Notes under the pieces: model-generated
The model's input: only the letters and a program-made list of their open reading frames with translations
Databases searched by the model: none
Told to the model about the DNA's origin: nothing
Part shown: piece by piece, positions 1-24,766 of the stretch
How positions within the stretch are numbered: position 1 is the first letter of the stretch
Layout of the letters: every line of letters starts with the position of its first letter
Source of the DNA: a virus
Reading direction: 5' to 3' (one strand)
IMG/VR virus record: IMGVR_UViG_3300037882_005382
Location: 1 to 25,220 of that record
Length of the DNA stretch: 25,220 bases
Made by a program: the position numbers and the translations under genes

Positions 1-1059
1 ATGTCGAAAGCTCGAAAGGGCACCGTCTCAGTTGCCAGCCAAGACGGAATGCTTCGTCTGCGTTGGCGACATCTCAGCAAACCCTACACCCTCGCCCTCG
101 CCCTCGCCGACACCCCGCTTCACCGACGCATCGCCCAAGGCAAAGCTTCCGAAATCCAAGCGGACATTGCCTTCGATCGCTTTGATGAAACGCTTAGAAA
201 ATATGTCGGAGAACGAACAACCACGATTTCCAGCAAAACCCTGTTCGATCGCTACATCGCCGCTCGCCGCAAGGCAGGCACCCAAGAGAGCACCTTAACC
301 AGTAAATACATCGCCCTCTCTGGCAACCTCAAACGCTTTGAACGATCGATCGACTCCAGTGATACAGCAGTCGCTTTTATTAAGCTGCTCCGGTCTCGTC
401 AGAAGCCCTTGATTTCTAATCAGAATCTTTCACTGCTCAAAGGTTTCGGGGACTGGTGCGTTCAGGGCGGACATTGGCCGACGAACTTTTTCGCCGATAT
501 CCGAAGCGTCAAGGGAGCAAAGCCCGCCCGCGAAGGCGAACCTTTCACGCGAGCCGAAATCACCCAGTTTCTCACCACACTCAAGAGATCCAAATACTAC
601 AGCCACTATCACGATCTCTGCTTCTTTCTGCTATCCGTTGGCTGTCGTCCCGGCGAGGCTCACGATTTGCGCTGGCATCAGGTCAATTTGCAGGACGGCA
701 CCGTTACGATTAATCACACAAAAACCGACAGCACCACACTGCTTACCGTCCAACCCAACATCCTTTCCATGCTCCAAGGGCGATCGTCGTCAAGACGCTC
801 TGACCTCGTATTCCCCTCCCCAACAGGCAAACGCATCAACACTCGATCGTTCTGTCGGCGATGCTGGAAACAAACCTGCACCGATGCGGGAATCCCCTAT
901 CGCGTCCCCTACTTTGCCCGCCATAGCCTAGCCAGTCATCTCATCGAATCAGGCGCAACCTACCCACAAGTGGCCTACGTTCTAGGGCATTCCTCCACGC
1001 GAATGGTCTCCCAGACCTATGGCCGCATGGTTACACCTCCTCAGCTCCCAGAGTTTTGA
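1..1059 (+). CDS. int: Tyrosine recombinase / phage integrase
   Basis: A 352-aa tyrosine recombinase that would catalyse site-specific integration and excision. The C-terminal catalytic domain shows Arg216 in GCRPGEAHDLRW, a probable Lys241 in the beta-hairpin (HTKTDS), Arg307 in YFARHSLASHL, His330 in LGHSS and the nucleophile Tyr340 in QTYGRM. The usual first His of the HxxR box is Tyr304, a substitution I recall in other cyanobacterial integrases. Residues 75-175 look like an N-terminal SAM-like core-binding domain. The ATG is the first base of the window, so neither its ribosome site nor a start further upstream can be examined. A tRNA-Pro-like fragment lies about 70-120 bp after the stop, between two pairs of direct repeats, as expected for an integrase next to its own att site. 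Confidence 0.93.
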   Translation: MSKARKGTVSVASQDGMLRLRWRHLSKPYTLALALADTPLHRRIAQGKASEIQADIAFDRFDETLRKYVGERTTTISSKTLFDRYIAARRKAGTQESTLTSKYIALSGNLKRFERSIDSSDTAVAFIKLLRSRQKPLISNQNLSLLKGFGDWCVQGGHWPTNFFADIRSVKGAKPAREGEPFTRAEITQFLTTLKRSKYYSHYHDLCFFLLSVGCRPGEAHDLRWHQVNLQDGTVTINHTKTDSTTLLTVQPNILSMLQGRSSSRRSDLVFPSPTGKRINTRSFCRRCWKQTCTDAGIPYRVPYFARHSLASHLIESGATYPQVAYVLGHSSTRMVSQTYGRMVTPPQLPEF

Positions 1060-1129: not shown

Positions 1130-1180
1130 TCTACCACTTTGGGGTAGTAGGGGTCGCAAGTTCAAATCTTGTCATTCCGA
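1130..1180 (+). other. tRNA-Pro-like 3' fragment, probable att core
   Basis: The 3' part resembles the end of a tRNA: T-stem GCAAG (1156-1160), T-loop TTCAAAT (1161-1167), T-stem CTTGT (1168-1172, one G-U pair), acceptor strand CATTCCG (1173-1179) and discriminator A1180. Upstream, a degenerate anticodon arm contains TTTGGG, which fits tRNA-Pro(UGG), but its stem has a mismatch and the loop is short. No D-arm or 5' acceptor strand is present, so this is not a functional tRNA gene. A 3' tRNA fragment beside an integrase is the usual trace of integration into that tRNA gene. Confidence 0.6.
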
Positions 1181-1230: not shown

Positions 1231-1279
1231 CACCTCAGCCATTTTCAGCCATTCCCGGACATTCGATCGCTCCTTTTGT

Positions 1280-1297
1280 GTACGGATTGTGTACGAA
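1280..1297 (+). repeat. Second paired GTACGRA repeat, right side of att
   Basis: GTACGGA at 1280 and GTACGAA at 1291 are again 11 bp apart, and the intervening bases end in TGT as in the first pair. With the pair at 1060-1077 it brackets the tRNA-like core about 55-100 bp away on each side. Finding arms on both sides resembles an attP layout more than a simple attL or attR. Confidence 0.45.
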
Positions 1298-1362
1298 GGT
1301 TTTAGGGGTATTTGTTTTCCAAGAACGGTAACACTTGAAAACATTTTGACGGTTCCAAAACG

Positions 1363-1716
1363 AGATTTAAAAAGTCACATTCCCGACACAACCAGCAAAA
1401 AACCAGCAAAACCAGCAAGCCTTTTTTTACTGGTTTTACTGGAAGCCTTATACAGTGCGACTTTCAGAAAGCCCAAACCAGCAAAACCAGCAAACCAGTA
1501 AATCTCTTACCTTTTAAGGAAAAAGAAAAAAAGAAAATAAATATAGAGCCAATAGAAAAGCCAATAAAAAGCCTGTAAAGGGAACCAGATTTACTGGTTT
1601 TCTCGGTTTGCTGGTTTAGGATGTTGCTATGACTGGGTTTGATGCCGACCAGTAAAAAAAGGCTTGCTGGTTGCTTCTGGTTTTTGCTGGTTGTGTCGAG
1701 AATGTGACTTTTAAAA
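1363..1716. repeat. 350-bp nested inverted repeat with ACCAGCAA iterons; possible origin or foldback element
   Basis: The outer left arm, about 1366-1433, is nearly the reverse complement of 1649-1715; blocks such as AAGTCACATTC, CGACACAACCAGC and AACCAGCAAGCC recur exactly inverted. An inner pair lies at about 1474-1504 and 1583-1618. ACCAGCAA or ACCAGTAA motifs recur several times in each arm. The centre (about 1511-1580) is A-rich on one strand. No ORF here looks coding. Iterons beside an A-rich unwinding-like segment suggest a replication origin; a foldback (MITE-like) element or a structured RNA are alternatives. No target-site duplication was seen. Confidence 0.7.
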
Positions 1717-1759
1717 GGTCCCCATGTTTCAGCCTAGATTGGGGCCGATCACCCTTGGT

Positions 1760-1793
1760 AGATTTAAATTCGTTGGATGAAGCGTTTAAATCT
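1760..1793 (+). promoter_or_regulatory. 9-bp perfect hairpin or operator ahead of the coiled-coil gene
   Basis: AGATTTAAA (1760-1768) and TTTAAATCT (1785-1793) form a perfect inverted repeat separated by 16 bases, ending just before the ribosome site (AGGAAAA) of the gene at 1808. The same AGATTTAAA opens the left arm of the large inverted repeat at 1363. It could be an operator or a leader hairpin; there is no direct evidence for either. Confidence 0.35.
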
Positions 1794-1807: not shown

Positions 1808-2155
1808 ATGAACATTAACCTATCCCCCCTCCGTCAAATTGTTGAAGTGTTGCGAACGAAAATCAGTGCCCAATGGTCTCAGGTGGGAGTCTTGCAAACT
1901 AGCGTCTACGCCCTAACGAACGAACTCGCCCTCGTGCAAAGCCAACTCGCCACCGCCCTCGCCGCCGAACCCGCGCAGCTCGCCGAAATTGAAGCGCAAA
2001 AAATCCGCGCCACGGATGCAGAAGCCGCCCGACTCCTCGCTGAACAAGCCCTAGCGGAGCAACAAGCCACCGCCCAAGCCGAAATTGGCGAACTTGAGCA
2101 GCAGCTTGAAAGCCTGGTTCAGGAAAGCAGCCCGATCGCTGACCCGGTCTACTAA
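1808..2155 (+). CDS. Small coiled-coil protein of unknown function
   Basis: A 115-aa protein. Residues 1-30 (start MNINLSPLRQIVEVLRTKI) look amphipathic; from residue 35 to about 107 it is rich in Ala, Glu, Gln and Leu with heptad-like spacing, indicating a long coiled coil. The start is supported by AGGAAAAAG 2-10 bases upstream. There is no signal peptide and no recognisable domain. It is the only plus-strand gene between the att region and the terminase operon, and it faces that operon with paired hairpins between them. Short coiled-coil proteins like this are common in cyanobacterial prophages, but I cannot name a function. Codon use matches the neighbours, and it is probably real. Confidence 0.7.
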   Translation: MNINLSPLRQIVEVLRTKISAQWSQVGVLQTSVYALTNELALVQSQLATALAAEPAQLAEIEAQKIRATDAEAARLLAEQALAEQQATAQAEIGELEQQLESLVQESSPIADPVY

Positions 2156-5328: not shown

Positions 5329-6270
5329 ATGAGCAAATTAGTAGAAATTTTTCGACAGGGAACGCACATTGATAGTGCAGGTGTTACCCGTACATTTACG
5401 GAAGATACCCTTAAACAAATTCAAGATTCCTACAATCCTGAAAAACATACGGCTCCATTCCTGGTTAATCACGATGAATCAAAGCCCAACCGAGGAATTG
5501 TCGATCGCCTTATAAGGATTGGTTCCTCGCTCTATGCCGCCGCGAAAAATATTGACGCCGATTTCCAAAAGCAGATTAACGATCGGAGACTGCCTGCGCT
5601 ATCAGCCGCACTCTATTCCCCCGAAGACCCTCGCAACCCCAGACCGGGAATGTGGGGGCTTCGGCATGTCGCAGCCGTTCAGATTCCAGCGGTTAAGGGA
5701 ATGAAGCAACCCGAATTCAAAGAATGCGACAAGCTTTTGACGATCGAGTTTGCAGAGCTAGCCGTAGAGGAGGAAGAACCTGAAGAGGAAGAACCTGAAA
5801 CTAAACCTGAAACTAAACCTGAAACAACGGAGCCACCAATGACTGAGGAAGAACTCAAGGCCCTTAGAAAACTATTAGACGAGCGATCGACAGAACTGGA
5901 TAAAAAATCCGCCGTCTTGGACGCAGCAGAGTTTCAAACCTTTGCTGAAGCCTTGCTAAAGGAAGGCCGTGTCTTTGATTCCAAACTCGCAGCGGCGATC
6001 GCGGTCACGCTCCCCAGTGAAGCGGAAAGCACGATCGCATTCGGAGAAAAAGCAGAACCGATTCAAACGCGATCGGCTTTCAAAAAGTTCCTAGAAGCCT
6101 TGCCTAAGACGGTCGAATTTGGGGAGGTATCAGCGGGCGCGGCTCCGGCGAAGTATGACGCGAATGCGATCGCCACAGCCGCCCGTGACTACAAATCTGA
6201 GCAAGAAGCCAAGGGCAATTCCATTAGCTTCTCTGAAGCGGTGGCCCATGTAGAAAAAGGAGTGAAATAA
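5329..6270 (+). CDS. Mu gpI-like head maturation protease with in-frame scaffold
   Basis: A 313-aa two-part protein. Residues 1-145 are a Mu I-type prohead protease: EIFRQGTHIDSAGVTRTF, FLVNHDESKPNRGIVDRL with candidate catalytic His48, and LPALSAALYSPED with candidate Ser92 or Ser97. A flexible acidic repeat linker follows (EEEPEEEEPETKPETKPETT, 147-166). Residues 171-313 are helical and scaffold-like. The family processes the prohead and removes scaffold. The ATG at 5329 is chosen because the family motif begins right after it; an upstream in-frame TTG at 5308 adds seven unconserved residues. The ribosome site is weak. First gene of the plus-strand morphogenesis operon. Confidence 0.88.
   Translation: MSKLVEIFRQGTHIDSAGVTRTFTEDTLKQIQDSYNPEKHTAPFLVNHDESKPNRGIVDRLIRIGSSLYAAAKNIDADFQKQINDRRLPALSAALYSPEDPRNPRPGMWGLRHVAAVQIPAVKGMKQPEFKECDKLLTIEFAELAVEEEEPEEEEPETKPETKPETTEPPMTEEELKALRKLLDERSTELDKKSAVLDAAEFQTFAEALLKEGRVFDSKLAAAIAVTLPSEAESTIAFGEKAEPIQTRSAFKKFLEALPKTVEFGEVSAGAAPAKYDANAIATAARDYKSEQEAKGNSISFSEAVAHVEKGVK
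5828..5841 (+). promoter_or_regulatory. Internal Shine-Dalgarno and ATG for the nested scaffold
   Basis: CGGAG (5828-5832) stands six bases before an in-frame ATG (5839-5841), a better initiation site than that of the full-length gene. It sits exactly at the linker between protease and scaffold, as in Mu, where gpZ starts inside gene I. Confidence 0.7.
5839..6270 (+). CDS. Nested scaffold protein, Mu gpZ-like, in frame within the protease gene
   Basis: Internal translation from the ATG at 5839 would give a 143-aa protein identical to the C-terminal half of the protease ORF. It begins MTEEELKALRKLLDERSTEL and is largely helical and charged, as expected of a removable scaffold that nucleates the prohead and is then digested. 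It shares the frame and stop of the longer gene. Support comes from the strong internal ribosome site and the known Mu I/Z arrangement; expression itself cannot be seen from sequence. Confidence 0.65.
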   Translation: MTEEELKALRKLLDERSTELDKKSAVLDAAEFQTFAEALLKEGRVFDSKLAAAIAVTLPSEAESTIAFGEKAEPIQTRSAFKKFLEALPKTVEFGEVSAGAAPAKYDANAIATAARDYKSEQEAKGNSISFSEAVAHVEKGVK

Positions 6271-6272
6271 CT

Positions 6273-6683
6273 ATGACTCAAGCGACACAAATCATTGCCT
6301 CAATTCAGGCCGATAGCGAGGGCATTCCCCCTTATCGAATTGTCATGACGAACCCGTTTAACGGTTCCATTGGCTACAGCACAGGCAACAATCTAGTTTC
6401 TGGATTTCCCGTTGCTTATATCGGCGTAACCGGAGAATTGGGCATTGACCCAGATGCTGTTGGCGACTGTACGGTTGCGGGAATCGCGTATGTGCAAAGC
6501 GGGGAAGGTCAGCTCTTGCCGGGAAGTCCGATCGCCTGCGATCAAGTGGGCCGAGCTGTGCCCGTCATCGGGCCTGGAGAAAGAATTGTTGGCTTTTGTC
6601 TGGAGAACCAGCCAACAACCCTAGGCCAAATTGTCAAAGTCATTGTTTCTCCAGGTTCTTCTTATTCGGGGCTTAGTTCGTAA
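6273..6683 (+). CDS. Capsid cement/decoration protein, DUF2190-like
   Basis: A 136-aa beta-rich, Gly-rich protein between the scaffold and the major capsid gene. Segments such as GDCTVAGIAYVQSGEGQLLP and IGPGERIVGFCLENQPTTLG fit the small capsid cement proteins (DUF2190 type) that brace expanded HK97-fold shells from outside. It starts at ATG 6273, just after the protease stop, with GGAG eight or so bases upstream. Assignment is by position and general sequence character, without a diagnostic motif. Confidence 0.62.
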   Translation: MTQATQIIASIQADSEGIPPYRIVMTNPFNGSIGYSTGNNLVSGFPVAYIGVTGELGIDPDAVGDCTVAGIAYVQSGEGQLLPGSPIACDQVGRAVPVIGPGERIVGFCLENQPTTLGQIVKVIVSPGSSYSGLSS

Positions 6684-8754: not shown

Positions 8755-9567
8755 ATGAGCGGAATTGCGATCGGTTTTGGGGATGCAGGCGTACGATCGA
8801 CTTCGATCGCGGGCGGTCCCGGTAATCAAAAATTATTCAGATATCCTATCTTCAGCTTCGACTTAGACCAAGAGTCCAAGAATGAAGAAGTCTTGGCCTA
8901 TAACGCGGGGATTCATCAAACAGAAGACATTCTAGACGGAGCCACCACCACCACCCTCAAGCTGTCCACAGAGGTGGTCAACTGGGGCATGATGGGTCTC
9001 GCTCAAAACCAAATCGAGCGGACCCTGACCAACTTCAGCCTGCCCCGACTCAAGCGGGCAACAGTGCCTTTGACGGCTCCCTACGAAATCGTAGACACAG
9101 ACCTGACCGCAGCGAATACGGCTAAGACTTTGGTGAGCGTCGATCGCTACGGCACTTGGGGTCAGACCGGAACCCTCACGCTCTCGGCCACGGCACCCGA
9201 TGCCCGATCGGTGCAGATTGTCACAGCCAATACAAAGCTCGTCTTCAACGCGGCTCAAGCGGGCGCACCTGTCACCTACATCACAGACCAGATTGTTCCG
9301 GCTGCAAACGTCTACGGCGGGCCTGGACAGTCAGCGCAGATTGGTGAAATGGAGTTCTGTGGAACCATTTACGACAACTCCAACGACCCCAGCAATGGTC
9401 AATACATTTGGATTCCCCGCATCAAACGGTTCACCGCACCAAAACTAAACTTTTCAGGCGGTAAAGCGAAACTTGAAACCGAGTTCCGCTGTCTATCGGT
9501 CCCCGGCTGGACCAATCCGTTCATGATGGTTGACCTTCACTCGATCGTTCCCCAATTAATCATCTAA
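8755..9567 (+). CDS. Major tail tube protein, probable
   Basis: A 270-aa beta-rich, Gly/Ala/Thr-rich protein between the neck protein and the tail chaperone, where the tube gene lies in siphophages. No tail sheath gene of about 400-500 aa precedes it, unlike Mu, so the tail is probably long and non-contractile. C-terminal segment GKAKLETEFRCLSVPGWTNP has the alternating pattern of tube strands. An Ig-like or decorated insertion may occupy about 115-180. AACGAGGAATT before ATG 8755 provides a ribosome site. The stop overlaps the next ATG by one base. Confidence 0.65.
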   Translation: MSGIAIGFGDAGVRSTSIAGGPGNQKLFRYPIFSFDLDQESKNEEVLAYNAGIHQTEDILDGATTTTLKLSTEVVNWGMMGLAQNQIERTLTNFSLPRLKRATVPLTAPYEIVDTDLTAANTAKTLVSVDRYGTWGQTGTLTLSATAPDARSVQIVTANTKLVFNAAQAGAPVTYITDQIVPAANVYGGPGQSAQIGEMEFCGTIYDNSNDPSNGQYIWIPRIKRFTAPKLNFSGGKAKLETEFRCLSVPGWTNPFMMVDLHSIVPQLII

Positions 9568-10115
9568 TGAAGTGGATTGAACTAGACCTAGACACCTACA
9601 CATTCGAGGGCGTAGACGGGGAAATTCATACCTTTCCCGGCTGCTCCCTTGTCGGTTTTTTTGAGTTTGAAAAACGACTGATTGATCTGCAAAGTTTGTT
9701 ATCGGACGCGGCGGAAGTGATGCCTGTGCAATCGCTTTACCAATCAGATAAGCGATTTAGATGGACGATCGATCGGTGCCTCAAACTGAATGGCATTAAC
9801 CCCGATTGGTGCAATTGGCAGATTGTGGAGCAAATGCTTTTTGTCCCTGGGTTGCTCCGTGAGGTGAACCAACCCAAGGGCAATTCAGGGGGTGAAGGGA
9901 AGGCTCCCGATCTGGCCGAATTGATTGCGGGAATTGCCCATGCGACGGGTTCAATTACGGAGGCGATCGACCTGGCAAAGACGCAGCCGATTAATGCGTT
10001 GGTCGATATTATCGAAGCCTATACTCAGGCTCAATTGCCGCATGATGAACAGGATAAAAAGGGCTTTGATGAGTGGATGGAAAACGCGAGGAATGAAGCC
10101 TTTGGGGTGAGTTAA
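9567..10115 (+). CDS. Probable tail assembly chaperone
   Basis: A 182-aa acidic helical protein immediately before the tape measure gene, where tail assembly chaperones are encoded. The N-terminus (TYTFEGVDGEIHTFPGCSLV) is beta-like; the rest is helical with DLAELIAGIAHATGSITEAI and a charged tail. Such chaperones bind the tape measure and recruit tube subunits. Many phages make a second, frameshifted form; I saw no obvious slippery heptamer near the 3' end and no overlapping ORF. TAATG overlaps link it to both neighbours. Confidence 0.6.
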   Translation: MKWIELDLDTYTFEGVDGEIHTFPGCSLVGFFEFEKRLIDLQSLLSDAAEVMPVQSLYQSDKRFRWTIDRCLKLNGINPDWCNWQIVEQMLFVPGLLREVNQPKGNSGGEGKAPDLAELIAGIAHATGSITEAIDLAKTQPINALVDIIEAYTQAQLPHDEQDKKGFDEWMENARNEAFGVS

Positions 10116-13100
10116 TGGCAGGTCAGCAAATTACTTTAGGGCTGCTAATTTCCGCGACGGGTGGACAGCGAACCGTTGCGGAATTGTTGGCGTTGCGGGC
10201 CGCTGCTAGACGGATCGCTGATGAAGCGCCGGGGATTGCTCAATTGGCAAATGCTTTTGGTATTACTGGAAATGCCGCAAGAAGGCTGATGACTGATATT
10301 GGAAAAACGCCAGAAGAGATTTTAGAAATTGCGGAATCATTAAAGGCAATGCGATCGGCTGGAGCGTCCAGTGCCGAACAAATTTTAGGTTTATCGGCGA
10401 GATTTGGCCTCACAGCAGATCAAGCAAGAAGACTACAAGCAAGCATAAGAGGGACTTTTGACAATGAAAATACTAGAGTTTCTCAGTTTGGCGATGGCTT
10501 GGGGGCGGTGGCATTTAAATTTAACAATATTATTACCGCAATCCAATCTCTCGCCGCCGCTGCAAAACCAGCCTACGACCTGCTTATTGGAAGTAACGAA
10601 AAATTAAATGCTCAGCTACTAAGCAGCCAAACAAATCTTGCAAGCTCCACCCGAATTTCCCAGGGTGGTCAAGACATTACCGACCCGATCGCAAAAATCC
10701 AAGCAACGCAACCTGCACTGAAAGCAGCACTGAAGCAGGTTGAAGAAGACACCCGATCGCTGGTCGGTGTGACCAGCTCCCAAGTCAATGAGCTGTTCCA
10801 AATCACGCTGACCAATGCCGCATCACTCAATAATCAATCCAAACAATTCCCGGACCCGATCGCTGCTGCAACGTCCCTAACTAAAGGCTGGGCGGCATCA
10901 CTAAAAGTGATTGGGATTCCGCTGGACCAAGCGCGACAGGAAATCAATTCGATCGTCAAAGGGCAGGTGGATCAGAATTCCCTCTTGGCTAAAAACCTTA
11001 ACATCAGTAATGAACAGGTTAATAAATGGAAAGGACAAGGCATCCTGGTTGATGAGTTGAATAAAAGACTTGAGGTCTTTGTCGCCGGGAACAAGATTGC
11101 ATCCAATAGCATTGAGGGTATTGGCTCCAATATTCAAGAATTGTTTGAAGTCTTTGGTCGCAATGCAGGCGCGCCATTTTTGCAGCCTACGATCGATGCT
11201 CTGCAAGCGGTGTTTGAATACTTGGATGCGAACAAAGCTGCGATCAATCAGTTCCTGTCTGAGATTGCCACGGTGCTACTGTCCACAGGTCAAAAACTTG
11301 GCACAGCCCTAGAACCCTTTGGCCGAACGTTGCTCAGTATTGGAGAGCAAGCGGGACCGATTTTGCTCAATGCCTTTGAAGGGTTGTCGTCAGTGTTGGC
11401 TGGTCTGGTTACGGCCCTGGCCCCGATCGCCAACTTCATTGCCCAAATCATTGAACAGATTGCCCTGTTTGCCAACACAGACATCGGCGGCATTGCAGTG
11501 CAGGCGGTGGTGGTTACGGCGGCCTTCGTTCAACTGGGGACGATCGTCGCCGGATTCGCCGCAGCCACGATGCCAGCGGCCTTAGTCGCGGTAACAGGTT
11601 TGAGCGGTGCTTTTGCCACATTGTCTACAGGAGTAGTGGCACTCGCAACAGGTGGGATTCCCGGATTGATTGCGGCGTTCCCTGGATTAATTGCGGGGCT
11701 TGGTGCGGTCTCGACTGCGGCATTACCTGTCGCTGCGGCATTGGCACCTTTAGCTGGGGCGATCGCACTCACCTTCATCGTCAAAGGAACTGAAGACCTC
11801 AAAAAATCTCAAGAGGAACTCGACCTGATGCGCAACTCAACCGAACAGTTGTCGGATGAGTCAATTAAATATGCGTCGAAATTGCGAAACCTCGCCCAAG
11901 CCCAAAAGGAAAACGGTTCTCTTACCGCAGAGCAGACCAAAGAACAGCGGCTTTACTCCGACCTTGCCAAACAAACCATCAAAGCCAATGAGGACCAAAT
12001 TGCTGCACTCAAAGCCCTAACTCCAGCCAGTAAGGAACAAATTTCTCAACAGCAAATCCAAATCGCTGAACTTGAGCGGATGAACAAGACGCTCAGCAGC
12101 GCGTCGGGTGGCATTAAAATTCAGGGTAAAGAGCTGGAGGTTTTGGGCAGTTCCTATGAGCAGCTTGCTAAGAAAGTAAATAATTCTAATAACGCAATTA
12201 ACAACGCTCAAACCAATGAGGAAGCCAGTAAAGCCGCTAATGAATTAATTAAGACAATCGAATCCCAACAGGAACTTGCTGCAAAATCTGGAAAAATTAC
12301 AACAGATGCCGCTGTGGAGCAATTGAGGGCGATCGAGCAAAATACTAAACTTGAAGTCGATGTAAAAGAGGCCGCATCCGAAGCGATTGTCAAAATCCGT
12401 AAAGGCGAAATTAGCAAAGTCAAGGACCTTTTAGATCAAGGAAACCTGACCGAAGTTGCGGCGATCGGACGGCTTCAAGAGCTGAGGGCAAAGGCTGAAT
12501 CTCCTGAAATAGCAAAAGCCGCCTCTAATCAAATCATTGCCATTCGTAAGTCTCAGGTGGATGCGGAAGTCGCCGTCATTCAAGCGGGTCTTGCAGAAAT
12601 TGAAGCCGCCAAAGCGAAGGGCGAAATTAACGAGATTGAAGCAGAGCAACAAACAACGAAACTAAAGCAAGAGGAAATCAAAAAACGGATTGACCAGGCT
12701 CGTGAGGAAGCGAACCTCGCCACCGGAGCCGATCGCGAGAAAGCCCTTGCCAATGTGAAAAAATTGAATGCGGAATTAGAGAAAGCCGCTGCTGAATCGT
12801 CGGCACGTATTCTGGCCATCAAAATCAAAGCGATCGAAGAAGAGAATGCCAAAGCCCTCGCCCTCGTCAAATTATCCGAGCAAGAGCGTAAAAACGAGAT
12901 TCAGCGAAGCCTCAACGACCAATCCACCACCCAAGAAGAAGCTCGAAAAGAACAGCTTGATGCTCAAAGAGAAAGTTTAGAAAAAGAAGTTGAAATCGCC
13001 AAAAACAATCAGCAACGCCTTGCAGAACTTGAAAGCCAAATCACCAACCCCAAAGCCCGCGAGGATTTTGAAAGACGTAAACTGGAGGCTGCTAACAAGA

Positions 13101-14413
13101 CCGCTGGGGCAATTTCTAAACTCCTAGACAATGAAGCCGCACAAATCGAACTCCAGCGACAGAAAGTCATTCGCGCCATTGAAAAAGAACAGGATGCACG
13201 ATCGAAGGCGATCGACCTGCAAATTGCTCAGTCCAACAAAATCGCTGCGGTTCGGAATGCCAATGCAACGACAGCGGAGCTGGCATCAGGGCGGGAAATT
13301 GCTGCGATCGATGCCGCGAACCGCGCGTTGCAAACCCAGGGCAAAATCCTAGAAGCTCGAAGCCGACTGGAAAAAGCCCGCTTAGATGCAGCATTGTTTC
13401 TAGCTGAGAAGTCTGGCGACCCCGATGCTGTCGCCGCCGTCAAAGCAGCTCAATTTGCCGCAGAACAAACGGCGGCCCAAACAGCCCTTGCCCAGCAAAT
13501 TAAGGCCGAAGACATGGCCAATCGTCGCGCAGTGATTGAAGCCAAAATCAATGAACTCAAAGCGAAACAAGCCGTCCTCACTGCACAGCAAGCCGTAGCC
13601 GAAGCCAATCTCACCGCCGCCAAAGCCAAGGGCGAAGCGGATGCAGCATTGGCCAAAGCGGACACCCTTGCACCCGGTGAGGCCAAGGACAAGGCCATCA
13701 ATGATGCCAAGCAACAGCAAGCGCTAGCGGCTGAACAGGGCGCAGCGCAGAAGGCCAATGCTGGGGCAGGGCTAGAGGTGGCGAAGCAGGGCGCGCAGCT
13801 CGCCGGGGAAGCCGTCAAGGAAGCCACCCAAAATGCGGCGGCTTCTAAAGAATCTCAGGCATTGCAGCAACAGGCCCTGAATCTCGAACAGCAGACCGCA
13901 AAGGCCCGCTTTGAATCTGAGCAGTCGATCGCTCGTCAGAATGCCTTGCTGTTGCCCCAGCAAGCCACTCAGAACACGATCGCCAACGATGCTGAACGAA
14001 CCAACGCCGCAAGGAATGGCAGTGGAGGACAGGCCACTGCACTCCCAGGACGAAGAGACGGCGGGTCCGTCACAGCGAATACGGCCTATCTGGTGGGTGA
14101 GCGCGAGCCGGAAATCTTTATCCCGAATGTATCAGGCACCATCCTCAACCAAGCCCAAATCACGCGCAACCTTAGCGCACTTCAAGCCGCACAGACGATC
14201 GGTGGCATGGGTACCCCCACGATCGCACTGTCCCAAAACTCGACCGTGAGCATGGGCCAGAACGCGATCGTTCAAGAGTTGCAGGCATTGCGGAAATTGG
14301 TGGGCGATCGTCAACCGATTTCACAAATGAACGCAACCTTTGAAGCGCCTGACTCGGTGAGCTTTGATAAATTTGCACGGTTACAGCGATCGTTATTGAG
14401 GAATAAACTTTGA
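10115..14413 (+). CDS. Tape measure protein
   Basis: A 1432-aa protein, by far the largest here. It is helical and Ala/Glu/Gln/Lys-rich, with long coiled coils (about 580-1300), including a repeated unit near 730-830. A hydrophobic block spans about 457-558 (GGIPGLIAAFPGLIAGLGAV within it), as in tape measures that help DNA cross the membrane. The C-terminus has the typical RRDGGSVTANTAYLVGERE and EIFIPN (about 1316-1337). Tape measures set tail length and leave the tail tip at injection. Using the rough rule of 1.5 angstrom per residue the tail would be around 200 nm, an inference. No peptidase or lysozyme domain was seen. The stop overlaps the next gene's TTG start. Confidence 0.95.
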   Translation: MAGQQITLGLLISATGGQRTVAELLALRAAARRIADEAPGIAQLANAFGITGNAARRLMTDIGKTPEEILEIAESLKAMRSAGASSAEQILGLSARFGLTADQARRLQASIRGTFDNENTRVSQFGDGLGAVAFKFNNIITAIQSLAAAAKPAYDLLIGSNEKLNAQLLSSQTNLASSTRISQGGQDITDPIAKIQATQPALKAALKQVEEDTRSLVGVTSSQVNELFQITLTNAASLNNQSKQFPDPIAAATSLTKGWAASLKVIGIPLDQARQEINSIVKGQVDQNSLLAKNLNISNEQVNKWKGQGILVDELNKRLEVFVAGNKIASNSIEGIGSNIQELFEVFGRNAGAPFLQPTIDALQAVFEYLDANKAAINQFLSEIATVLLSTGQKLGTALEPFGRTLLSIGEQAGPILLNAFEGLSSVLAGLVTALAPIANFIAQIIEQIALFANTDIGGIAVQAVVVTAAFVQLGTIVAGFAAATMPAALVAVTGLSGAFATLSTGVVALATGGIPGLIAAFPGLIAGLGAVSTAALPVAAALAPLAGAIALTFIVKGTEDLKKSQEELDLMRNSTEQLSDESIKYASKLRNLAQAQKENGSLTAEQTKEQRLYSDLAKQTIKANEDQIAALKALTPASKEQISQQQIQIAELERMNKTLSSASGGIKIQGKELEVLGSSYEQLAKKVNNSNNAINNAQTNEEASKAANELIKTIESQQELAAKSGKITTDAAVEQLRAIEQNTKLEVDVKEAASEAIVKIRKGEISKVKDLLDQGNLTEVAAIGRLQELRAKAESPEIAKAASNQIIAIRKSQVDAEVAVIQAGLAEIEAAKAKGEINEIEAEQQTTKLKQEEIKKRIDQAREEANLATGADREKALANVKKLNAELEKAAAESSARILAIKIKAIEEENAKALALVKLSEQERKNEIQRSLNDQSTTQEEARKEQLDAQRESLEKEVEIAKNNQQRLAELESQITNPKAREDFERRKLEAANKTAGAISKLLDNEAAQIELQRQKVIRAIEKEQDARSKAIDLQIAQSNKIAAVRNANATTAELASGREIAAIDAANRALQTQGKILEARSRLEKARLDAALFLAEKSGDPDAVAAVKAAQFAAEQTAAQTALAQQIKAEDMANRRAVIEAKINELKAKQAVLTAQQAVAEANLTAAKAKGEADAALAKADTLAPGEAKDKAINDAKQQQALAAEQGAAQKANAGAGLEVAKQGAQLAGEAVKEATQNAAASKESQALQQQALNLEQQTAKARFESEQSIARQNALLLPQQATQNTIANDAERTNAARNGSGGQATALPGRRDGGSVTANTAYLVGEREPEIFIPNVSGTILNQAQITRNLSALQAAQTIGGMGTPTIALSQNSTVSMGQNAIVQELQALRKLVGDRQPISQMNATFEAPDSVSFDKFARLQRSLLRNKL
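14398..14412 (+). promoter_or_regulatory. Shine-Dalgarno supporting a TTG start
   Basis: GAGGA (14398-14402) stands seven bases before TTG at 14410, which overlaps the tape measure stop (TTTGA). No in-frame ATG lies near, so this site decides the start of the following gene. Confidence 0.6.
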
Positions 14414-14847
14414 GCTATATTTCCTGGCTGGGTACGAGCCTAATCAATCCCTACCCGATCGAACACAAACATATTATTCTCGCCCATCCCCTAGTGCCAG
14501 ATGCTTTGATTTTGGCCCAATTTCAAAGCGAACCCTACAACCGATCGCTCGTGGGGTTTCCAGCGTCAGATGGGCGGTCTAGGACGGGCGGGATTCGGGT
14601 CAAGGGCGATCGATATGCCCCTCAACCTGAATGGGATTTTAATCTCAGTTGCAAAACACCGCAGCTGTATCTATTTGAGCAGTTGCTGTATACCCAATCA
14701 CTGTCTGTTATCCCAATTACCTTCACTGACAACTTTGCGGGCACTGGAGCCGCGACGGTGTTTGTCGATGTGGATGGTCGCTACTCGACTCCGGCGACAA
14801 CGATCGACCTTTGGAAGTTGCAATTTAAATTAAGTAAAGAGGTGTAG
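14410..14847 (+). CDS. Distal tail protein, unidentified
   Basis: A 145-aa protein starting at TTG 14410, overlapping the tape measure stop. It is beta-rich with aromatic residues (EPYNRSLVGFPASDGRSRTG, PQLYLFEQLLYTQSLSV), as in small distal tail or tail-tip adaptors. No specific family recognised. Position immediately after the tape measure matches the distal tail protein slot of siphophages, which caps the tube and anchors the hub. Function is therefore inferred from order only. Confidence 0.6.
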   Translation: MSYISWLGTSLINPYPIEHKHIILAHPLVPDALILAQFQSEPYNRSLVGFPASDGRSRTGGIRVKGDRYAPQPEWDFNLSCKTPQLYLFEQLLYTQSLSVIPITFTDNFAGTGAATVFVDVDGRYSTPATTIDLWKLQFKLSKEV

Positions 14848-14849
14848 TT

Positions 14850-15137
14850 ATGAGCGATCCATTTGGACCGAGAACCAAGATTATTAACACCACCCGCGTG
14901 ACTCAACAGCAGGCTCAAGCGAAAGCGATCGGCGATCGCCACTCCTGTTGCGCTGGGCAATTGGGAGCCTATTCAGACCGTGATGCTTTGACGGGCGATC
15001 GGTTGTTCATCATGCCCGACGGCGGCCAGATTCGACAGAACTGGATTAGCAATTCTACGCCCGCTGCACTTCCGCCCTTGACCATTCCCAGTGGGACGAT
15101 CGGCCTACCCGGATACTCTAGCCAAAAACCCCGATGA
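14850..15137 (+). CDS. Small tail-region protein of unknown function
   Basis: A 95-aa protein starting at ATG 14850, two bases after the previous stop, with AAAGAGG about ten bases upstream. It is polar and Pro/Gly-rich, with a Cys-Cys pair (SCCAGQLG) and a proline-rich end (AALPPLTIPSGTIGLPGYSS). It overlaps the next gene by an ATGA tetranucleotide. No family is recognised; by position it is a minor tail component or assembly factor. Confidence 0.6.
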   Translation: MSDPFGPRTKIINTTRVTQQQAQAKAIGDRHSCCAGQLGAYSDRDALTGDRLFIMPDGGQIRQNWISNSTPAALPPLTIPSGTIGLPGYSSQKPR

Positions 15138-16930
15138 GATTAAACTATCGAATTCCTGAATATGAATTCAAAATTGGGGCGTTTGATGCGTCCGCTTTTT
15201 TGAATAGTTTTAGTTTGAATTGCAGCCCATTGGAAATCAATGCGCCCGCGCTGTGGAGTGGAGATTTTGAATTGGATTACAACCGGATTGCCATGCGATC
15301 GGGCCTCACGGAGAATGACTTTGACCCGCTACATACACCTGCCAGATGGAGACCTGGACAAGCTGTGGTGCAAATTAAAATCAACACCTACCCACTGCCA
15401 CCACTGCGCATTGAGAACTATGTCTACGATGCCAAAACGCGAACCGGACGCGGACGATTGGTGCAGTTGCTCGCGCTAATTGGGGGCGATCGGCCTGCTG
15501 CTGAGCCGGATGTAATCATTCCCGGTGATGGGCTTCCGCTCAATCGAGCGATCGAAGAGTTGCTCAAATCGGCCTACGCTCTGGCCAATCTCACCCCGAC
15601 ATTAGCGATCTCAAACACGGCAATCACAGGCGTAATCCACGCTCCCCTCACCACCCGTGATCCGATCGCTGATGCCCAAAAATTAGCGGGTGTGAATTGG
15701 CAATGGTTGACCGTCACGCCTACCGAATCGACGACGGTTTTTAGTTGCAATCCAAGCGATCATGGGGTGTTGTTTAGCCGATCGATCGGCCAAGTTGAAT
15801 GGGAACCGGACCTGGACGCAATCCATTTCGCCGCGCCCAAAGTCATCGTCACAGGGAGCCGTCAAATTTTGGATGATGTGCCCGCATGTCCCAATGACCC
15901 GAACCCAGCGGCGGATAGTAAGGGCAGACCTAAGCGCGTCACTACTGAGCAATTTGAACCTTTTGGAAAAGTGTTCCCCCAATCGGGGACCAGTACAAAC
16001 CCAGTAATTTCCATGAGGAAAACGATCCAATATGCTTATAACAAAGCTGATACAGGAATTAGTACGATCGGATGGTCCCTCCCCTTTGACGTAGGCAGTG
16101 ATTTGAATACGGCAACTTCGCTCAATACAAAAGACTTCGACGCAAACACGCCGATTAAAACGCTCACGGTAATTGAAGAACCCTTTGGGAAAGTGTTTCC
16201 AAAATCGGGGACTAGCGCCAATCTTGTCGTTAGTAAGGCGATTGTTGAAACGCCATTTGTCCGGGCTGAATATATCCCTTTTGGCGTCATTTTTCCGTCG
16301 TCGGGCACCTCTTTAAATTTATATGCTGCTCCAAGGGAAGTTTTGACCAATCAACGTGTCGCTCAAAAGCCTGACCATGGGGGGGAAATTGACCCTCTTA
16401 CAGGCAAACCGAGATGCTTTGAAAAGCCTCCAGAACTAGAAGACGCGCAGCCCGTCCCCCAAAAGCCGCTTAAAACCGAGGTGATTAAAGGCGAGGCGAT
16501 CGTCACCACTCCAAACTGGACCCCGCTCATTCCTCGTCCCCTAATTGAGGAGGTGGGGTTTATTCCAACGCCGGGACATGCGACGAGTCTAGCCCAGCAG
16601 ATTGCTTTGAGAGAGCAGCGCAGACGTAGCGCTGTCCAGGTCGGTATGCCCATCCCAACAGAGTGGCTTCAGGCTGGCTGTCCTGTGGCTTTTAGGTTGC
16701 TGTGTCATGATGGTGAATTTTGGGGTGAGGGTCCGATCGTGGCCTTCTCTGAGGGGTTTGCAGAGTTCTCATTCAGCGGTGGCCGCATTGGGACATTGGC
16801 GACTGTCATTGCTGAGCCTGCACCTTATCCAGTTTTTGAGTATGGTCAGGCGTCAATATCGGTGCCGCCGAATATTGTCAGTCCGGTTGGCGCTCCGGTT
16901 AATATTCCGATCGTTGTGGGAGGTGTGTGA
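15134..16930 (+). CDS. Large tail protein, probable hub/tip, with three internal repeats
   Basis: A 598-aa protein following the distal tail genes. Residues 1-130 form a beta-rich domain (EFKIGAFDASAFLNSFSLNC, GDFELDYNRIAM, LRIENYVYDAKTRTGRGRL) that resembles tail hub N-termini; 130-250 look like a second hub domain (LNRAIEELLKSAYALANLTP). Three copies of PFGxxFPxSGTSxN start at residues 276, 350 and 382. The C-terminus (about 490-598) has a helical stretch (LAQQIALREQRRRSAVQVGM) and a hydrophobic tail. The ATG overlaps the previous stop. Likely the structural hub that bears fibres; whether it also contacts the host is unknown. Confidence 0.6.
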   Translation: MRLNYRIPEYEFKIGAFDASAFLNSFSLNCSPLEINAPALWSGDFELDYNRIAMRSGLTENDFDPLHTPARWRPGQAVVQIKINTYPLPPLRIENYVYDAKTRTGRGRLVQLLALIGGDRPAAEPDVIIPGDGLPLNRAIEELLKSAYALANLTPTLAISNTAITGVIHAPLTTRDPIADAQKLAGVNWQWLTVTPTESTTVFSCNPSDHGVLFSRSIGQVEWEPDLDAIHFAAPKVIVTGSRQILDDVPACPNDPNPAADSKGRPKRVTTEQFEPFGKVFPQSGTSTNPVISMRKTIQYAYNKADTGISTIGWSLPFDVGSDLNTATSLNTKDFDANTPIKTLTVIEEPFGKVFPKSGTSANLVVSKAIVETPFVRAEYIPFGVIFPSSGTSLNLYAAPREVLTNQRVAQKPDHGGEIDPLTGKPRCFEKPPELEDAQPVPQKPLKTEVIKGEAIVTTPNWTPLIPRPLIEEVGFIPTPGHATSLAQQIALREQRRRSAVQVGMPIPTEWLQAGCPVAFRLLCHDGEFWGEGPIVAFSEGFAEFSFSGGRIGTLATVIAEPAPYPVFEYGQASISVPPNIVSPVGAPVNIPIVVGGV

Positions 16931-22970: not shown

Positions 22971-23017
22971 ATTTGCGGGGCATTTCGCACCGCCTCTCTC
23001 AAAAATGCCCCGCAAAT
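22971..23017. repeat. GCGGGGCATTT palindrome, copy 2
   Basis: ATTTGCGGGGCATTT (22971-22985) pairs perfectly with AAATGCCCCGCAAAT (23003-23017), with a 17-base loop unrelated to the other copies. It occupies the whole gap between the 48-aa gene and gpG, ending four bases before the GGAG ribosome site of gpG. It could attenuate or shield that site. Confidence 0.85.
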
Positions 23018-24713: not shown

Positions 24714-24766
24714 AAAGTTTGCGGGGCATTTTGATGGGTGAGGTGTGCAAATGCCCCGCAAACTTT
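24714..24766. repeat. GCGGGGCATTT palindrome, copy 3
   Basis: AAAGTTTGCGGGGCATTT (24714-24731) pairs perfectly with 24749-24766 over 18 bp; the loop is 17 bases. The flanking pairs (AAAG with CTTT) differ from copy 1 but keep the stem, which suggests the structure is maintained. It abuts the ATG of the minus-strand fibre gene on one side and the end of the ASCH region on the other. Confidence 0.85.

Follow-up and report, generated by a model that had tools for sequence, protein, structure and literature searches.

Opposed iterons around an A-rich core form a probable replication origin of a temperate cyanobacterial phage

The DNA analysed here, referred to as a whole as the window, is a 25,220-base virus record that is classed as having no end repeats. 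Its region 1366-1716 is very probably the replication origin of a temperate cyanobacterial phage, at which a Rep protein would bind the iterons and the core would melt. A first-pass annotation had suggested a possible phage or plasmid origin at this place, and the phage reading is supported by conservation in two phage contigs, by a fused primase-helicase in a relative, and by recurrent opposed arrays at the 3' ends of rep genes. The argument as a whole draws on the sites, their conservation, the co-occurrence of arrays with a Rep family, and the predicted fold. SaPI-like iteron origins are a known kind, and the window holds a variant whose initiator family is named by no library that we searched.

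Results

The window opens with an integrase, continues with terminase genes and a Mor-like activator on the minus strand, and then carries head, tail and portal genes. The neighbouring integrase on which the first reading had leaned is indeed there, a tyrosine integrase at 1-1059, and the features between it and the terminase genes are as follows.

1-1059, plus strand: tyrosine integrase gene, 352 aa
1054-1085, plus strand: candidate integrase arm-type repeat, left of the attP core (repeat family D4)
1152-1180, plus strand: 3' end of a tRNA-Pro gene, candidate attP core
1274-1305, plus strand: candidate integrase arm-type repeat, right of the attP core (repeat family D4)
1366-1434, plus strand: outer left arm, with plus iterons at 1391, 1402 and 1411 and a minus iteron at 1427
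1472-1516, plus strand: inner left arm, with plus iterons at 1477, 1486 and 1494, in 9- and 8-bp steps
1506-1582, no strand: A-rich core, candidate unwinding element, 76/77 identical in L004 and 74/77 in L053
1576-1620, minus strand: inner right arm, with minus iterons at 1591 and 1608 and a degenerate unit between them
1648-1716, minus strand: outer right arm, with a plus iteron at 1648, minus iterons at 1664 and 1684, and a degenerate unit at about 1674
1808-2155, plus strand: 115-aa ORF with no assigned function, between origin and terminase

The candidate attP (1054-1305) places the 3' end of a tRNA-Pro(GGG) gene between two GTACGAA-type repeats. Of 386 genomes from the phylum to which G002 belongs, 15 contain the tRNA-Pro 29-mer with one mismatch, and its site is tRNA-Pro(GGG) in all six genome loci fetched. 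Because arm-type repeats stand on both sides of the core, the sequence suggests that the attachment site in the window is the attP of a non-integrated molecule. Elsewhere in the window, a hairpin, TTTGCGGGGCATTT, occurs three times (2159-2203, 22972-23016 and 24718-24762), in every case with its reverse complement beginning 31 bases further along; it is present in L004, L053 and L061 too, and is perhaps a shared bidirectional terminator.

The element consists of nested inverted repeats, as first described. Its outer arms (1366-1434 and 1648-1716) are 69 nt long, 87% complementary and 213 nt apart. The inner arms were likewise found where they had been proposed, at a greater length than the roughly 30 bp given to them: 1472-1516 and 1576-1620 are 45 nt each and 82% complementary. 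The symmetric structure stops at 1716 and not at 1793. The region holds no plausible gene, in agreement with the first description, as its only frames, of 70 and 60 aa, are not gene-like.

The repeated unit reported at the outset, ACCAGCAA/ACCAGTAA, is found in 13 exact copies across the 25,220 bases of the window, and all but one of these lie at 1391-1691. Expressed as ACCAGYAA, 12 of the window's 13 exact sites thus fall inside 301 bp, where 1.15 would be expected per whole window and the maximum in any of 100 shuffles was five; multiple short iterons of this sort are a mark of SaPI-like origins. Their strand order is + + + - + + +, then the core, then - - + - -, and degenerate units occupy the middle of both right-hand groups. 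The middle is A-rich, as had been noted (39 of the 60 bases at 1520-1579 are A), and the lowest G+C of the window is a tie among the 70-mers starting at 1499-1501. Iteron origins have an A+T-rich segment adjoining the iterons, and by composition and conservation the core is a candidate for such an unwinding element.

The conservation expected in related phages was found in two contigs. One viral contig, G001, carries a single copy of the region at 92% identity (locus L004). The map of G001 closes at about 36 kb through a 299-bp overlap (99%) of the contig ends, and the window matches the stretch that begins at 28.8 kb, crosses this junction and finishes at 16.7 kb. The remainder of G001, absent from the window, holds an HTH repressor-like gene and a gene for a 933-aa DUF3854 protein, which we call Rep. 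The second contig, L053, begins inside the origin, and the region is therefore cut by the contig end. The terminase relatives L050 and L051 (61%) carry no array. Set against annotated phages and plasmids, the DNA of the region gave only short, chance-level matches, and scans for the bare iteron pattern returned zero contigs in the first run, six contigs in another (their repeats mostly of coding type by look, with L005 a possible exception) and already known contigs only in the last. The GC-skew inflection proposed as a check was not seen: the cumulative skew of G001 has its maximum near 21 kb and its minimum near the contig ends, and shows no extreme at the site, at 29.6 kb.

L004 encodes one replication protein, in which DUF3854, a Toprim-like domain of the type seen in CyRepA1 (PF12965, E 2.6e-26), is fused to a helicase. 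A model of the helicase domain (residues 377-853; pLDDT 86.8) finds its best structural match in the SaPI5 primase-helicase 7ola (Z 18.2, 4.6 A, 369 aligned, model 1-457), followed by poxvirus D5/E5 and, lower, by SCCmec Cch (Z 13.9) and PriRep1 with dsDNA (Z 13.4). The last 100 residues of the model form helices and then a two-stranded hairpin; we read this C-terminal part, which is alignable across 16 Reps, as a winged helix. The model thus has the D5/SF3-like helicase and, as a prediction, the C-terminal DNA-binding part of SaPI-like initiators, in a protein encoded outside the window fragment. Among 30 sequences of the helicase domain (residues 377-853 of L004 Rep plus 29 more; alignment A4, comprising L004, L012 and 28 of 31 viral loci, without L085, L088 and L098), none was seen to reach a curated Pfam or NCBIfam cut-off, and none matched a PHROG at E 0.001. 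L004 Rep had no match to DEAD/DEXD Pfam models up to E 1, the C-terminal DEXDc of CyRepA1 being one such domain type. Sequence searches of the PDB gave weak or P-loop matches only, a full-length Rep model built from two sequences was uninformative (pLDDT 32), and one viral scan with the Rep protein returned its own contig only.

The L004 array begins at 10772, 1.9 kb downstream of rep (which ends at 8882), with the integrase and att intervening; in relatives such as L035 and L070 the array is found directly downstream of rep, as in SaPI-like systems. The pairing of rep and array in the phage is suggested by their position and by their being the sole such pair seen. The L004 integrase (10001-10441) has 146 aa, against 352 aa in the window; its coordinates imply that about 621 bases have been lost internally and in frame. 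Barring an assembly error, this copy may therefore no longer be capable of integration.

Arrays recur beside homologous rep genes. In L012 (Cyanothece), an integrase relative, an analogous (GGTGACAAC)n array lies inside the 3' end of its own rep (6189-6426), within the reading frame, and in L042 a TTGTGACATT array (11062-11485) is also within the rep reading frame. L035, a plasmid of Chlorohelix (Chloroflexota), has a GTGACGCT array directly after rep, and Streptomyces plasmids have GTGACGC or GGGACGC arrays downstream of rep. The integrase relative L011 has no array. In L013 (Nodosilinea; 12642-15185), a related integrase stands beside a DUF3987 gene with an opposed GGTAGAC array at its 3' end, which is an equivalent plan with a different replication protein.

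We scored opposed repeats by k-mers. Of 23 loci, 12 scored at least 10 close to the 3' end of rep, versus 2 of 55 background blocks, in an exploratory set for which the cut-off of 10 was picked after viewing the loci and in which a far score of 13 in L054 lies outside the counted blocks. In 31 further viral loci, found by protein alone and scored with unchanged code, the same level was reached in 10, versus 0 of 36 background blocks; two of these contigs, L079 and L090, end shortly after rep. Among the layouts compiled, which cover scoring or borderline loci, many arrays have the form -9-9- ... +9+9+. Opposed runs phased at 9 bp occurred near the rep 3' end in 21 of 54 loci; the background gave 1 in 130 segments and shuffling 0 in 540. 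The p-value of this test is descriptive only, since the test was designed after viewing the layouts of positives among the same 54 loci. The window and L004 fail the strict phased-run test (L004 is among 33 failures), owing to the degenerate middle units in their right arms. Either test was positive in 27 of 54 loci (20 of 35 clusters at 60% identity), and the other 27 rep loci pass neither. An array-less clade has AGCGTCC/GCGTCCC repeats well upstream of rep (five copies in L074, at about 1076, and two in L089, at about 1051), and its origin may have moved.

Across lineages the unit differs while the layout persists, and the phage unit is without the GTGAC-like core of many other members. No array was found in loci with DUF3854 only (L031 and L046, apparently one plasmid, and L032, L045 and L047), and arrays therefore seem to associate with the helicase part of Rep.

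Repeat arrays also serve as partition, operator or regulatory sites, and the iterons could bind a Par-type, repressor or late-regulator protein in place of an initiator. We consider this improbable for the phage. In L055, L056 and L060 parA follows the array, so that a partition site is conceivable in some Streptomyces plasmids; however, arrays track the 3' end of the rep family in cyanobacteria, Chloroflexota, Streptomyces and viruses, and the available part of one source reports the pFP11 iterons to be bound by RepA (PMC3583192). Nor is an operator reading helped by the surroundings, as no sigma-70-like promoter was found at 1000-2400.

It is less probable still, and very unlikely, that the 350-bp hairpin acts as a large structured RNA or attenuator. 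The predicted fold is very stable, with energy z-scores of -13.7 and -12.7 for the two strands, but both strands fold about equally, as expected of any inverted repeat, no Rfam family reaches its gathering score, and the interval 1000-2400 yielded no promoter-like site. Pair counting, over three homologous sequences of which one is partial, found 8 of 10 changed pairs broken and 2 kept in L053, and 7 of 14 broken in L004, where three of the seven kept have both sides changed and most of the 14 fall outside the arms. Pair-preserving evolution, which the RNA alternative raised at first would lead one to look for, was not evident across these few homologues. Identity to the window is 76/77 (L004) and 74/77 (L053) in the core, and 34/43 and 35/44 in the right flank. 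L053 has lost the non-iteron outer end of the arm; GTGAC/GTCAC, present in the outermost arm of the window and L004, is absent from it. Iterons and core are kept while base pairs break, and to judge from these alignments the conserved feature seems to be protein sites, not strand folding. A remnant of a foldback transposon, also considered at first, or of a MITE, for which the long inverted repeats would speak, has hardly any likelihood left, as the dispersed copies looked for were not found (one copy in the 25-kb record, where other matches are the arms against each other, and one in G001) and the position is constant: in L004 the integrase and the 115-aa ORF flank the element, and in L053 it again precedes this ORF.

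The replication-origin reading can be set beside the layout of L035, in which twelve sites run +++-++ and, beyond a middle gap, --+---, a perfect dyad; the gap is 75% A+T in a locus of 56% A+T. With the degenerate site at 1674 included, the window order is one edit from that of L035, a closeness reached by 0.36% of random strand orders and 1.6% of random dyad orders in a comparison of the window and L035 only, made after the likeness was noticed.

Discussion

The SaPI5 and SaPIbov1 origins share with the phage both iterons and an initiator helicase, and it is the SaPI5 primase-helicase that the Rep model matches best. They differ in that phage Rep has a DUF3854/Toprim-like part in place of the AEP primase, the phage origin lies 1.9 kb from rep behind integrase and att, and the phage iterons form nested opposed groups in steps of about 9 bp. 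As far as the available part of PMC7581432 goes, SaPI Rep is a self-loading helicase whose C-terminal domain reads iterons just downstream of its gene, the C-terminal domain of the SCCmec helicase Cch2 binds sequence just downstream of its own gene, and SaPI primases belong to the AEP family.

The Streptomyces theta plasmid pFP11 encodes a helicase-type protein homologous to phage Rep (31% over 481 columns), with an opposed iteron array downstream of the helicase gene, but has a separate prim-pol gene preceding the helicase and the unit GGGACGC, and is a high-G+C plasmid, not a phage. In the available part of PMC3583192, RepA of pFP11 and pFP1 binds its iterons and RepA of pWTY27, also a Streptomyces theta plasmid, footprints on an inverted iteron array; we infer that the homologous pFP11 gene is the repA of that source. 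CyRepA1 and CyRepA2 of cyanobacterial plasmids have an N-terminal DUF3854 (available part of PMC10079941), shared with phage Rep, and a C-terminal DEXDc where phage Rep has a D5/SaPI5-like helicase; the CyRepA literature consulted, including that part of PMC10079941, does not mention iterons. Phage Rep resembles P4 alpha and its origin in the fusion of primase and helicase, by description only. Phage P4 has iterons at ori and crr. Its alpha joins a Toprim-type primase and a helicase in one protein, and in the Sulfolobus plasmid pRN1 the origin contains a long inverted repeat and lies downstream of the gene for a primase-SF3 helicase-winged-helix protein (both from the available part of PMC4234260). 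The pRN1 replicon is like the phage in that long inverted repeat and, given the relation of origin to initiator gene, in its order; it differs in having a stem-loop without iterons.

By analogy with SaPI Rep, Cch2 and RepA of pFP11 and pWTY27, we infer assembly of phage Rep on the opposed groups, and with it binding, melting at the core, ring loading and fork direction. Rep, with its DUF3854/Toprim-like part, D5/SaPI5-type helicase and C-terminal winged-helix-like domain, would bind the 9-bp iterons, and the opposed groups flanking the core would set helicase rings face to face. The A-rich core would then melt, the primase part would prime, and forks would leave. Two opposed hexamers on twelve sites are our conjecture, part of a broader picture that is tentative and, on balance, doubtful: a family of initiator helicases that has no name in Pfam, NCBIfam or PHROGs may span cyanobacterial phages, Chloroflexota, Streptomyces, Methylobacterium and an archaeal plasmid, with origins made of opposed groups of three 9-bp-phased iterons whose unit drifts with Rep, and the twelve sites of phage and Chlorohelix (outer and inner groups plus two singles) may seat the two hexamers. 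The literature searched, which took in few subscription papers, gives no account of this phage origin, and none of an opposed phased geometry in this Rep family.

These results give a candidate origin and initiator for a group of temperate cyanobacterial phages. They also give a rule, to scan the rep 3' end for opposed 9-bp-phased repeats, that leads to candidate origins in metagenomic plasmids and viruses. A natural series in which each Rep C-terminal domain comes with its own iterons could reveal how such domains read DNA, and small rep-plus-origin cassettes may serve as cyanobacterial vectors.
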